From NCBI GenBank assembly GCA_025451215.1, contig JANWKU010000114.1, positions 1-64,000 on the forward strand: DNA of 64,000 nt, read 5' to 3'. The notes below the pieces were generated by a model. It searched no databases. It was not told the origin of the DNA and saw nothing but the letters and a program-made list of their open reading frames with translations. The DNA is from Terriglobales bacterium. Its GTDB lineage: Bacteria; Acidobacteriota; Terriglobia; Terriglobales; Acidobacteriaceae. The position numbers were made by a program, and so were the translations under genes. The number at the start of each line of letters is the position of its first letter. The first letter of the stretch is position 1. Below, piece by piece: positions 1 to 4,899 of the stretch.

Positions 1-1996
1 ATACGGAACTCCGCAAAGAAAGCTTGCGGGCAAAGAGATCCCACTTGGTGCCGACCTCAAAGGTGCGATTCGCCTCTGGCGCAACCTGCGCAGTGCTGGC
101 ACTTAAAGACAGAGACTCGGCGGAGGGATTGAATGAGGTTCCGTAATCAAAGTAAATGCTGCCATTCTGCGCTGGTTTGTAAACCAAAGCTCCGCGCCAG
201 CTTGGTTTCGTCACCACCTGCGTGAATGGAGGCCGCGGCCCGGGCGGCGGCGTAGCGGGAACGGGCGTAGTGAATTGATTAAAGCGGGCGTCGAACCAAT
301 CAATCCGAGCGCCACCTGTCACTTCCCACTTCTCGCCAATCCTTACCGTATCCAGGACATAAGCACCGGCGCTCAAGGCATCCACGTGTGTGAACGATGT
401 AGTGGAAATCGTCCCTTCGAACTGTTGGCTCGGGTCCGGATCCGCCAGGCTGGTGAATGGCGTGCAATTGGTCAAAAGCGTGGGCGTACACGTCACATAA
501 GTAGGCCGCACCGGCGCGGAGGTTTCCCTTCCCACTTCAACGCCCGTCACCGGGTTGTGCCGCAGAAAACCAGTATGGAAGCGGAAGCTGACGTCCACCT
601 GATCGTCAAGATAGGTTTCCAAACTCGTGGCCGCAATTTCATGGCGGTTGGCGACGATGTCGTCGAGCGGCGTGGATGTGCCTAGCGTGGCGCCGTCAAA
701 TGTTCCTGTGACTTGTGCCTCGGTGATGCGCAGGTCGCGGTTATAGTGCGCGTAACGCGCCTGATTGCGGAATGTCACGCTGGGGCTGAAATCATGTTCG
801 AACTTCGCGGTACCAATTTGCACGTTGGTCTTTAAATAATTCCCGTGCTCGAAGCCGTAATAGTTGTGGCGCTCGACCGGAGCCGGCCCGTTGAAAAGCC
901 ATGGAATTCCATAATCCGGCGTGTCGTCCGCCCACTGGTGAAGATAGCTCAGCGTAAAGCGCGTGGGTGTACCCAAGCCAAACGCCAGCGATGGCGCAAC
1001 TCCAACGCGGCGGCTTTCGGCTACATCGCGCCCTGCGACTCCGGAATCCTGGCCCATGAGATTAAGGCGGAAGGCAGCGCCCGTTCCCAGCAATGGCAGG
1101 GGTTTGTTGATGTCCGTGGTAATGCGCTTGGTTTTGTCGGTGCCGAAGTCCACATCGCCGGTAACAAAATTATCCAGCCCGGGAGTTTTGGTTTCCTGGT
1201 TCACCACCCCACCCGTGGATCCTCGACCAAACGTGACCGATGACGGCCCTTGCAGAACCGCAACCTCCTGCGTATCGAAAGGATCACGGTAGTAGCTGCC
1301 AAAGTCGCGCATGCCATCCACAAAAAGATCGTTGCGCGCAGTGAAGCCGCGGATGGTGAGGCTGTCGCCCTGTGCTCCGCCCTCGCCCGCCGCCAGGCTG
1401 ATGCCGGCGACGTTGCGCAGTGCGTCGCGCAAGGTGGTTGCGCCCTGGTCCTGAATAATGTGCTGCGGCACTACATCGATGGATTGCGGAGTGTCCACCA
1501 GCGGCTGCATCAGTTTCGGGAGTGTGTCCTGCAACGTAGTTGAGGTCACCTCGACAACTGTGGACACTTTTTCTATTCCAAGGGTCGCGGTCCGCGGCGC
1601 TGTGAAGTGATAACTGATGCCTGTGCCGTTCAGAAGCTGGCGCAGCGCGGATTCGGGTGTATAGAGGCCGCTCACGCCGGGCGAGGTGAGGTCCTTCATG
1701 GCGTCGTTAGGAATGATGACTTTGATGGGGGCCATTTTTTCGAAGCCTTGCAACACCGTGGAAAGCGGCCCCGGGGCAAGATCAAAGCGGCGCACCGTCA
1801 AGCCTTGCGTTTGTCCAGAAGAGACGGCGGCCGGACTGCCATGACGCCCCTGCTGCGCAAATGCGCCCGGCACAGCCTTGCTTCCGAAACTGGTGTAGGC
1901 GGCAAGAGTGCCCAGCGCCATCCAGTACATGGGACCGCGCGGCTTTCGCCTATTGTTCCTGACTTTCGCCTTGATCTTGATTCTTGACTGGCTCAT
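1..1996 (-). CDS. TonB-dependent siderophore receptor, 3' end outside window
   Basis: Outer-membrane receptor that would import ferric siderophores using TonB energy. Reading the minus strand from an ATG at 1996 gives an open frame to the window edge (about 665 codons seen, no stop). A basic N-terminus and signal-like stretch are followed by an STN domain (about residues 69-140, RRFDLAPGPLSTVLQGFE) and then a plug domain with TPQSIDVVPQ, LTIRGF and VLQGPSSVTFGRGSTGGVVN. Near the window edge EVGTKWDLFARKLSL is typical of the beta-barrel strands. GGAG lies about 10 bases before the ATG. The STN domain suggests a FecA/FpvA-type receptor that can signal to a regulator, but no sigma or anti-sigma gene is visible here. 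It diverges from the Fur-family gene and shares its operator-rich upstream region, so iron control is likely. Confidence 0.93.
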   Translation of the reverse strand, partial: MSQSRIKIKAKVRNNRRKPRGPMYWMALGTLAAYTSFGSKAVPGAFAQQGRHGSPAAVSSGQTQGLTVRRFDLAPGPLSTVLQGFEKMAPIKVIIPNDAMKDLTSPGVSGLYTPESALRQLLNGTGISYHFTAPRTATLGIEKVSTVVEVTSTTLQDTLPKLMQPLVDTPQSIDVVPQHIIQDQGATTLRDALRNVAGISLAAGEGGAQGDSLTIRGFTARNDLFVDGMRDFGSYYRDPFDTQEVAVLQGPSSVTFGRGSTGGVVNQETKTPGLDNFVTGDVDFGTDKTKRITTDINKPLPLLGTGAAFRLNLMGQDSGVAGRDVAESRRVGVAPSLAFGLGTPTRFTLSYLHQWADDTPDYGIPWLFNGPAPVERHNYYGFEHGNYLKTNVQIGTAKFEHDFSPSVTFRNQARYAHYNRDLRITEAQVTGTFDGATLGTSTPLDDIVANRHEIAATSLETYLDDQVDVSFRFHTGFLRHNPVTGVEVGRETSAPVRPTYVTCTPTLLTNCTPFTSLADPDPSQQFEGTISTTSFTHVDALSAGAYVLDTVRIGEKWEVTGGARIDWFDARFNQFTTPVPATPPPGPRPPFTQVVTKPSWRGALVYKPAQNGSIYFDYGTSFNPSAESLSLSASTAQVAPEANRTFEVGTKWDLFARKLSLRSSV

Positions 1997-2121: not shown

Positions 2122-2138
2122 TTGCAACCGAGTCGCAA
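2122..2138. promoter_or_regulatory. Operator copy 1, imperfect TTGCAA-N5-TCGCAA
   Basis: First of a series of inverted repeats in the 391-base gap between the receptor and the Fur-family gene. Left half TTGCAA and right half TCGCAA match in five of six positions around a five-base spacer. The right half is followed by CTGAACTT, which is repeated after the copy at 2259. It lies on the receptor side of the gap. Confidence 0.6.
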
Positions 2139-2155
2139 CTGAACTTCGAGCATTA

Positions 2156-2172
2156 TTGCGAATCGGTCGCAA
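2156..2172. promoter_or_regulatory. Operator copy 2, perfect TTGCGA-N5-TCGCAA
   Basis: A perfect 6-5-6 inverted repeat with spacer ATCGG. A degenerate relative (TTGCAA, four bases, TCGCAT) follows at 2190-2205. Because it lies between divergent iron genes and recurs, I infer it is the binding site of the neighbouring Fur-family protein. The binding itself cannot be shown from sequence. Confidence 0.7.
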
Positions 2173-2258
2173 CTTAACAGTGACGCTTATTGCAATCCGT
2201 CGCATCTAGCACCAGTACGTTCCCGAAAAATTGTCCTCGGGGGTGATGCAGGTAAGAG

Positions 2259-2275
2259 TTGCGAACCGGTCGCAA
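2259..2275. promoter_or_regulatory. Operator copy 3, perfect TTGCGA-N5-TCGCAA
   Basis: A second perfect 6-5-6 inverted repeat, with spacer ACCGG, about 110 bases before the start of the Fur-family gene. The flank CTGAACTTACGAC resembles the flank of copy 1. This suggests autoregulation of the regulator gene. Confidence 0.7.
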
Positions 2276-2339
2276 CTGAACTTACGACTTTTAGTTTCGC
2301 GTGAATGCGCTGCGCTGTCAATGCGCCGCGAATAATACC

Positions 2340-2358
2340 GTCGCAGCTTGTTTGCGAC
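2340..2358. promoter_or_regulatory. Operator-like inverted repeat GTCGCA-N7-TGCGAC
   Basis: Perfect six-base arms around seven bases, in the opposite half-site order to the copies upstream, ending 29 bases before the ATG of the Fur-family gene. The right arm is also part of a TTGCGAC half site. Its position over the ribosome-binding region would suit autorepression. Confidence 0.45.
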
Positions 2359-2387
2359 CAGTTGCCACACCAGGAAAAGGAGAAATC

Positions 2388-2840
2388 ATGCCGCTTCCCC
2401 AGACCGAAATCCCGGGCCGCCTGCAGGCGTATTTTTCCGAGCGTGGAATCCGCATGACCCAACAGCGGCGCGCCATCCTGCAGGTCATGGAAACCGCCAG
2501 CAAGCATCTGGACGCGGCACAGATTCTGCGCAAGGCTAAAAAGATTGATCCCTCGGTGGACAGAAGTACCGTGTACCGGACGCTAAAGCTGCTTAAGCGC
2601 AACGGGCTGATTGACGAGCTGGACCTGATGCACATCCACGGCGAGGGCCATTACTACGAGCGCAAGGTGAACCGCGACCACATCCACATGGCGTGCTTGC
2701 GTTGCGGGAAAATCATGGAATTTGTCAGTGATATTTTTGAGAACTTAAAACAGCAGGTGGAAAAAGACTGCCGCTTCAAAATTATGGTTTCGCGGCTGGA
2801 AATCGGCGGATACTGCACTGCCTGCCGGGCTCAGCAATAA
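2388..2840 (+). CDS. Fur-family metal-dependent transcriptional regulator
   Basis: A 150-residue DNA-binding repressor of the ferric uptake regulator family. The N-terminal winged helix includes GIRMTQQRRAILQVME and SVDRSTVYRTLKLLKRNGLI. The C-terminal metal and dimer part has YYERKVNRDHIHMACLRCGK and GGYCTACRAQQ, giving two CxxC pairs for structural zinc and the HxH region for the regulatory metal. An upstream in-frame ATG at 2301 would add 29 unconserved residues. I chose 2388 because AGGAG stands just before it and the family length fits. Its neighbour is a siderophore receptor, so Fur itself is the likeliest subfamily, though Zur or PerR cannot be excluded. Multiple inverted repeats upstream suggest autoregulation. 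Confidence 0.93.
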   Translation: MPLPQTEIPGRLQAYFSERGIRMTQQRRAILQVMETASKHLDAAQILRKAKKIDPSVDRSTVYRTLKLLKRNGLIDELDLMHIHGEGHYYERKVNRDHIHMACLRCGKIMEFVSDIFENLKQQVEKDCRFKIMVSRLEIGGYCTACRAQQ

Positions 2841-3607: not shown

Positions 3608-4899
3608 ATGGACCGTAGCGCGACCCGGATTTTGCAGGCTTTGTTCGTTACATTGTGCGCAATATTTTTACCTTCTTTGACATCCGCGCAGACCTGGAAC
3701 CTCCGCTGGAGCGATGAGTTCAATGGTGCCGCCAATACCTTCCCCGATAGCAGCAATTGGGGTTATGAATATGGAAATCTCAAAGTCAACAACGAGCTTG
3801 AGTTCTATTGCGGTCCCACGGGCGATCCCAGCAACCACTCTCCGTGCACGAATGATTCCAATGTTTTTATGGACGGCAAAGGCCACCTCGTAATTCATGC
3901 TGTTCGTGTTGGCTCCGGCACTGCGCCGGGAAGCAATAGCTGGACATCCACGCGCATGGTCAGCAGTGGAAGGAAGTCATTCACCTATGGAAGGATCGAG
4001 GCCAGCATGAAATTGCCCACGGGCGCTGGCTTGTGGCCGGCGTTTTGGGCGCTGGGAACGAACATCTCCAGCGTGGGCTGGCCCAGCTCCGGCGAAATTG
4101 ATTTCATGGAAGATGTTCCTTCGCCTCCGGGAAATTTAGGCCCGGCGAAAATCAGCTCCACTCTTCACGGCGGAAAAGCGTTCGGAGATTGTTACTGCGC
4201 GGGAAATGGATTGGGCGGCGTTTTTACTTTTACGAATAGCGATGTGACTTCATTCCACACTTACGGGGCGATCTGGTCGCCGTATATGGTGCAGTTTTAT
4301 GTGGATGATCCGGCGAATTTTTTGAGGTGCGCACAGCCAATGACATTCCCGCAGGCCAGGCATGGAACTTCAATCATCCGTTCTATTTACTCTTGAACCT
4401 CGCCGTTGGAGGCACGGGAAGCTGGCCGGGCCCACCTGACAACAACACGCCAAGCCCTGCGCCCATGCTGGTGGATTATGTTCGCTACTATCAGGCTTCC
4501 GCTGTTGCGCCGCCGAGTTTTGCAGCTCCCGGCGCAATTACAGTGAAGGCGGGAGCGACTATGAGAAACATGACGACGGTAAATCTTAAGGGAACGGCTA
4601 TGGATGGCCGAGTCTATTTGAATTGCTCGACCAATGCTCTCAAGGCGAGTTGCTCCGTCTCTACTGCCGATCCGCTCAGCAAGTCCACGGTCAATCTTCG
4701 CGCTAAAGACACAGCAGCGGCGACGGTCACGCTCATCACAACGGCTAGTGGCGAAAGCAATGGCTCAGCAGGAAGCAGCGCGGGAACACCGCCAGGGACT
4801 TATGAGATCACGGTGAATGCATATGCCGAGACCAACGCCAGCCCGGCGAATCGGCCTGTGCCCGATGTGAGTGTGCAAATTCCCGTGACCGTTCAATAG
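3608..4899 (+). pseudogene. GH16 endo-beta-1,3-glucanase-like gene, split by a frameshift
   Basis: A secreted glycoside hydrolase family 16 enzyme (laminarinase type). The first frame (3608-4396) has a signal peptide ending TSAQ, the fold start LRWSDEFNG, and the catalytic motif GEIDFMED with both acid residues. It runs out of frame after FYVDDPANF. The family continues in another frame from about 4324, with DIPAGQAWNFNHPFYLLLNL and MLVDYVRYYQ, then about 130 residues of an Ig-like, serine/threonine-rich tail ending at 4899. The break is in a run of six T at 4318-4323; seven T would restore one frame of about 430 codons. AGAGGG before the ATG is a good ribosome site. It is either a recent pseudogene or a homopolymer sequencing error. 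Confidence 0.85.

Follow-up and report, generated by a model that had tools for sequence, protein, structure and literature searches.

The window analysed here is the 64,000 bases at the start of contig C114 from a draft Terriglobales genome (3.85 Mb, 90% complete). Near its left end, a divergent intergenic region of 391 bp (1997-2387) lies between the gene of a TonB-dependent receptor (ATG at 1996, minus strand) and a gene of the Fur family (ATG at 2388, plus strand), whose product we refer to as paralog A, or A. The features of the locus are as follows:

2..1996, minus strand: TonB-dependent siderophore-type receptor with STN domain, 665 aa (Plug, barrel and STN matches); the contig end cuts the gene
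2122..2138: putative operator site 1, TTGCAACCGAGTCGCAA, found by pattern; matrix score 31.3, rank 1 in the window
2156..2172: putative operator site 2, TTGCGAATCGGTCGCAA, 34 bp past the start of site 1; matrix score 21.4, rank 3
2190..2205: degenerate copy TTGCAA-TCCG-TCGCAT with a 4-base spacer, 34 bp past the start of site 2, read from the sequence
2259..2275: putative operator site 3, TTGCGAACCGGTCGCAA, 129 bp 5' of the Fur-family start; matrix score 22.5, rank 2
2341..2368: two weak overlapping copies offset by 11 bp, at -47 and -36 of the Fur-family gene
2388..2837, plus strand: Fur-family regulator (paralog A), 150 aa (PF01475, 7.2e-28)

The nearest NCBIfam model to the receptor is Fiu, with 317.7 bits, under the cut-off of 686. 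Searching the 391-bp region with the pattern TTGCRA-N5-TYGCAA returned exact matches at 2122, 2156 and 2259. Two of them, 2156-2172 and 2259-2275, are perfect copies of TTGCGA-N5-TCGCAA; 2122-2138 has one mismatch to this sequence and none to the relaxed pattern. An earlier note on this DNA had described a multi-copy inverted repeat with two perfect and further degenerate copies in partly shared flanks. This description holds, with a near-perfect copy at 2122, weaker ones at 2190 and 2341/2352, and the flank CTGAACTT common to 2139-2146 and 2276-2283. The copy at 2190..2205 was missed by the 17-bp pattern search and is possibly a weak site. Of the two overlapping copies, 2341-2357 reaches a matrix score of 4.3 and 2352-2368 has three mismatches; a relative of the same genus (L017) carries a better copy, with two mismatches, at the matching place.

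Scoring with a matrix of 107 sites from relatives, the window's own not among them, places the sites at 2122, 2259 and 2156 first to third in the window, followed by a match at 13.0. When the region was simulated 20,000 times with a first-order Markov model, one exact relaxed site arose in 22 of the copies and two or more in none, against three observed. Across the window there is no excess of matches with up to three mismatches (35 found, 48.6 expected). The signal is a cluster of near-perfect sites, with no enrichment across the window. TRF found no tandem array behind the 34-bp spacing, and the direct-repeat copies around the sites are 65-85% alike over 26 nt. Sigma-70-like matches (2 found, 0.6 expected) do not give a convincing promoter position relative to the sites. 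Terminator-like matches are present at close to the expected number (2 found, 1.4 expected), and one of them overlaps 2340-2358 on the minus strand. No match to the repeats was obtained in Rfam, nor any match among plasmid records.

Paralog A matches PF01475 over profile positions 1-120 of 121 with 97.6 bits (cut-off 23.1). Residues H40, H98, H100, C103, C106, E111, C143 and C146 are invariant in 27 aligned proteins, two of which are of the B type described below, and E91 is present in 80 of 80 A proteins. The cysteines and histidines among these positions correspond to the structural zinc cysteines and regulatory metal histidines of the Fur superfamily. Among the matches listed, A reaches the cut-off of none of ten NCBIfam equivalog models for Fur, PerR, Zur and Irr; its best score is 80.3 bits against a cut-off of 220 (Fur, Bacillus type). 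The residue that aligns by eye with D104, the oxidisable Asp of PerR, appears to be a glutamate (E111), which speaks against PerR. Comparing A with solved structures places 5fd6 first with 77 bits and 3eyy tenth with 54 bits, below other Fur chains. We assume that 5fd6 and 5fd5 are of the alphaproteobacterial Fur/Mur type, that 4ray is Magnetospirillum Fur and that 3eyy is Nur, although its structure listing says only putative iron uptake regulator.

The genome encodes three Fur-family genes: A, a gene on contig C84 and a gene on contig C125. The C84 gene is truncated by the contig end and falls in a canonical-like group that we call B; A and B differ at 21 well-conserved positions. The C125 gene (in locus L064, G000:C125:4273-7083) lies immediately 5' of a peroxidase-family gene, which we take to be of the catalase-peroxidase type, and its product is PerR-like as judged by this gene context. 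A or an ortholog (at least 46% identity) is present in 28 of 61 genomes, the window's own included.

The repeats recur at the loci of A orthologs. The ortholog set consists of the best 80 of at least 591 relatives in named genomes, one labelled Bacillota and the others belonging to acidobacterial groups; 77 of these loci, each with at least 250 bp upstream, form the footprint sample. De novo counting of 5-mer dyads in the 77 upstream regions, without the motif being supplied, ranks registers of the motif at the top. The top dyad occurs in 17 loci, and any dyad in five mononucleotide shuffles in three at most. A site with at most one mismatch is found in 40 of the 77 upstream regions (450 bp; 57 sites in total), and both controls, the reversed motif and the first 440 bp of genes, gave none. 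Most close orthologs retain a site at about -121 to -135, the position of the window site at 2259. Since the repeats recur at these promoters, autoregulation by the neighbouring gene product, as proposed in the earlier note, appears likely. It would not be universal, because 15 A orthologs (L165, L166, L170-L182; 57-61% identity) have no site at their own gene. Multiple sites per promoter are common in relatives: 34 of 67 promoter clusters contain at least two. Of 35 successive distances above 15 bp, 22 measure 76-94 bp, and six site pairs overlap at an 11-bp offset. The spacings in the window (34 bp and 69-103 bp) are its own arrangement.

When the downstream promoter is included, the motif is present in 60 of the 80 ortholog loci (best 80 of at least 591), and its presence goes with that of an outer-membrane partner gene. 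The partner is either divergent from A or lies in tandem downstream, where it has separate sites near +480 and +560. Loci with an outer-membrane or other large partner carry the motif in 55 of 57 cases, made up of 34/34 with a conserved barrel (two of these being weak profile matches, E 3e-5 and 6e-5) and 21/23 with another large neighbour, against 5/23 without a partner (Fisher 1.5e-11; the loci are related, hence not independent).

A motif model for wider scans was built from 46 sites, each with at most one mismatch to the pattern, selected from the 107 at named A loci. The window sites were absent from this training set, which drew on A loci only and never on FTR1, FeoB or orphan barrel loci. 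Matches of the model at the A locus arise partly by construction, because training used A loci and some of the scanned genomes are seemingly the same assemblies. All these scans scored only the best candidates of each genome and can miss weak sites.

Within the window's own genome, the model (E ≤ 10, best 150 of 1,327 candidates) returned four places: the three window sites, with site 1 (2122..2138) as the top match at E 5.5e-4, and C129:938. The last of these (L066) is a perfect inverted repeat with 14-base arms; its core reads TTGCAA-N5-TTGCAA, and it falls within a frame of 75 residues that has cysteine pairs. The short pattern has three other exact matches in this genome, all inside open reading frames of a simple caller, one of only 75 residues. 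Allowing one mismatch gives 57 places, and 29 for the reversed control; of nine such places that were read, eight are coding. By itself the short pattern is thus not specific, and the twofold excess may come from codon bias. The earlier note had proposed to test whether hits cluster upstream of TonB receptors and iron genes throughout the genome, and had named random occurrence or an equal rate in coding DNA as the refuting outcome. In the own genome the signal proved to be local, confined to the receptor and A, and the remaining exact matches are coding, although the model singles out the window sites plus one place. Among relatives, away from A, the motif precedes FTR1, FeoB and siderophore-type receptors or other outer-membrane genes.

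Across 61 genomes the strict pattern TTGCRACNNNGTYGCAA is matched 17 times, in 14 genomes, and the reversed control twice; of the 17 places, 12 are at the A locus, two at FTR1 and three in coding DNA. Scanning the 61 genomes with the motif model (E ≤ 0.01, best 122 candidates per genome) gave 22 places in 16 genomes, all of which have A. Eighteen of the places are at the A locus, three at FTR1 (G028, G010, G056) and one at FeoB (G014). The 33 genomes without A yielded no strong match among their best 122 candidates. In a class-wide draw of 299 genomes (E ≤ 0.002, best 24 candidates per genome), 38 genomes matched, adding 38 further regions, of which 21 lie beside A and nine before FTR1. The remainder comprises three barrel genes without A nearby, two receptors, one FeoB gene 1.25 kb away, one contig end and, lastly, a contig on which the site of one of these receptors recurs beside a catalase-like gene. 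In L324 and L325 (G196:C595 and C652), the motif lies between a receptor-type gene and a catalase-like gene, named by eye, and the site sequence is common to the two contigs.

The earlier note had further proposed that the repeat would define the acidobacterial Fur site. This claim did not survive: the canonical-like B co-exists with A, and both FTR1 genes of the own genome carry TTGAAATTCATTTTCAA and no TTGC box. Of 21 genomes, nine contain the pattern TTGAAANTSANTTTCAA, at 11 places in all (none for the control); in the own genome it marks just the two FTR1 promoters. Because TTGC and TTGAAA boxes are only two mismatches apart, each FTR1 box was assigned its type from exact 5-base arms, up to 380 bp away from the REGxE motif. 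We read 33 of 35 strong FTR1 rows (34 genomes, G000, the window's own, appearing twice), leaving out G058, which has no readable start, and G043; 12 weaker rows (E 4e-11 or weaker) stand outside the count.

The type of FTR1 box follows the regulators that a genome encodes. With B present, the window's genome included, the box is TGAAA-N5-TTTCA in 17/17 and TGCRA-N5-TYGCA in 0/17. Among nine genomes with A and no detected B, five have TGCRA-N5-TYGCA (G030, G028, G010, G049, G056); in G055 this box contains one mismatch, G005 carries TGAAA, and neither box is present in G015 or G025; a missing B may reflect incomplete assembly in G049 (75%), G025 (75%) and G010 (88%). In genomes with neither regulator, FTR1 is without either box (6/6). 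The association gives Fisher values of 1.8e-4 without G055 and 5e-5 with it, the genomes being related. The A-only genomes with TTGC boxes span four families. G005 is 99% complete, and with A present and B undetected its FTR1 and FeoB genes both carry TGAAA boxes; this points either to a B missing from the assembly or to another factor that reads the TGAAA box.

A comparison of 21 FeoB loci, two of them unreadable, points the same way. With B, the TGAAA box is present in 4/5 (none in G033); with A and without B, G014 has a TTGC box, G005 has TGAAA, and G034, G020 and G054 have none. No box is present at four loci whose B-type gene is distant, nor at four of the five with neither regulator; the fifth (G051) has a one-mismatch TTGC match. 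FeoB agrees in direction with the FTR1 box switch and is too thin to serve as a replicate.

Taken together, we consider it likely, with good confidence, that the repeats are operators of the adjacent paralog A, a metal-loaded and most likely iron-loaded repressor of the receptor and of its own gene. A would thus probably be an iron-type autoregulator. Dimers of metal-loaded A, with iron the likeliest metal, would occupy the sites; bound there, A would repress both the siderophore-type receptor and itself; when iron is short, A would leave the sites and both genes would be expressed. What the comparison shows is the sites themselves, their recurrence at ortholog promoters, their association with outer-membrane partners and their presence before FTR1, FeoB and outer-membrane genes elsewhere; binding by A, repression, the role of iron and joint action of the sites on one promoter are inferences. 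Iron is the likely signal because the recurring targets of known substrate are the iron permeases FTR1 and FeoB.

Of the alternatives, a different metal survives best, though we regard it as unlikely: A would sense zinc or manganese, its outer-membrane partners would import that metal, and FTR1 and FeoB would be secondary. The partner genes lend this some appeal. The commonest partner is an uncharacterised outer-membrane barrel of about 290 residues, present at 34 loci (e.g. L143:3596-4456) and often followed by a cytochrome gene, which has no known substrate. It carries PYFVTYDHHLEEPGNLEIE and an invariant CxxC, and two copies scanned with the relatives' profile gave no Pfam match. Its predicted fold is a β-barrel (pLDDT 77.7) closest to FapF and COG4313 channels, a modelled likeness that gives no substrate. 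A small CxxCH cytochrome-like frame is present in the same locus at 19 of the 34 barrel loci, and the operon of barrel and c-type cytochrome stands out as a probable metal-uptake system. Orphan copies of the barrel gene carry the motif with A not nearby (L305, L317, L334). Of the other 23 large partners, ten were scanned and all are TonB-type or OMP_b-brl_4. In favour of manganese, alphaproteobacterial Fur relatives have switched to this metal, according to PMC9409073. However, the recurring targets of known substrate are iron transporters, and the FTR1 box tracks regulator content, both of which argue against this reading.

We rate it as less likely still that A is a Nur-like nickel regulator, which would repress metal receptors in response to nickel. 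Nur controls nickel transport. The Nur of Streptomyces coelicolor is, like A, a member of the Fur family, and its operator has the same half-site and spacer as the A sites. It belongs, however, to another phylum, and its chain is not the closest solved structure to A (3eyy, taken as Nur, is tenth at 54 bits, against 77 bits for 5fd6). The targets of the A sites also speak against nickel, as they are iron transport and outer-membrane genes (FTR1, FeoB, siderophore-type and others), unlike the superoxide dismutase and nickel transport targets of Nur. The consensus of the relatives' sites, TTGCAACTnAGTTGCAA, is nevertheless the same as the Streptomyces Nur box, given as tTGCaa-N5-ttGCAA in PMC3919588. 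It seems, then, that a Nur-like box does not always signify nickel.

The closest solved relatives of A are instead alphaproteobacterial Fur/Mur chains (77 and 67 bits), with which the TVYRT helix is conserved. The box of that class, quoted as TG(C/A)-N-A-N8-CA(A/T) in PMC9409073, resembles TGCRA-N5-TYGCA. The box of the Acidobacteriota is stricter: its C is invariant, and it occurs at few places per genome.

Marginally less probable than the nickel reading is that another protein, B or the PerR-like C125 product, binds the sites and A is merely their neighbour. The genome does hold three Fur-family genes, and a single base in each half-site separates one kind of box from the other. Yet strong matches are found only in genomes with A (16/16, and 0/33 without it, among the best 122 candidates per genome), and B genomes have TGAAA at FTR1. 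The two paralogs also differ at position 22: R22 is present in 79 of 79 A proteins having a residue there, and K22 in 19 of 19 B proteins. Position 22 aligns here with Lys15 of Magnetospirillum Fur, where A has Arg; this lysine enters the minor groove, according to PMC4506495. R22 versus K22 may set the specificity of A and B. Very improbable, finally, is that the repeats are RNA hairpins or a mobile palindromic repeat and no protein sites at all, for although they are inverted and a terminator-like match covers 2340-2358 on the minus strand, Rfam gives no match, and the sites precede genes in both orientations, track the partner promoter and are few per genome.

Returning to A as the regulator, the FTR1 comparison suggests a wider reading: two Fur paralogs with boxes one symmetric base pair apart would share out the regulon, A controlling itself and the local receptor and B the permease, and in genomes lacking B the permease promoter would bear the box of A in place of that of B, promoters having been rewired between the paralogs in several families. 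We infer TTGCRA-N5-TYGCAA as the box of A and TTGAAA-N5-TTTCAA as that of B. B would accordingly read the TGAAA box, which lies upstream of the B-type gene itself in only 1 of 23 cases. We give this split of the regulon a chance just short of even, rated slightly down for two reasons: of the six TTGC boxes one is imperfect, and TGAAA is assigned to B indirectly.

The classical Fur box is GATAATGATAATCATTATC. The A sites resemble it in being inverted repeats of about 17-19 bp before iron genes, with 11-bp overlapping pairs occurring. They differ from it in their half-site, TTGCRA with a conserved C, whereas the AT-rich one is the TTGAAATTCATTTTCAA before FTR1 in B genomes. The recurrence of the A sites before iron-uptake genes in many relatives suggests a second, separate iron switch, one base per half-site away from the usual one.

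Acidobacteriota are abundant in soil. Among the matches listed, no open-licence full text describes an acidobacterial iron regulon or Fur box. Our analysis gives a concrete putative operator, its likely protein and a short list of targets for this phylum. What appears to be new is a candidate Fur-family operator and regulator with an unusual box and a small regulon, along with sequence evidence of box exchange between paralogs. The latter amounts to a natural experiment: a single base pair in each half-site changes in step with the Fur paralog that a genome retains.

Two minor observations concern the assembly. The FTR1 genes L072 and L073 (G000:C54 and C225) share 395 of 415 residues, the same TTGAAATTCATTTTCAA box and similar flanks, and represent either a duplication or two strains within the draft assembly. 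Downstream of A, a GH16 glycoside hydrolase gene (3608-4899, plus strand) is split into two frames that overlap (3608-4396 and 4327-4899), apparently through a frameshift or an error in sequencing.
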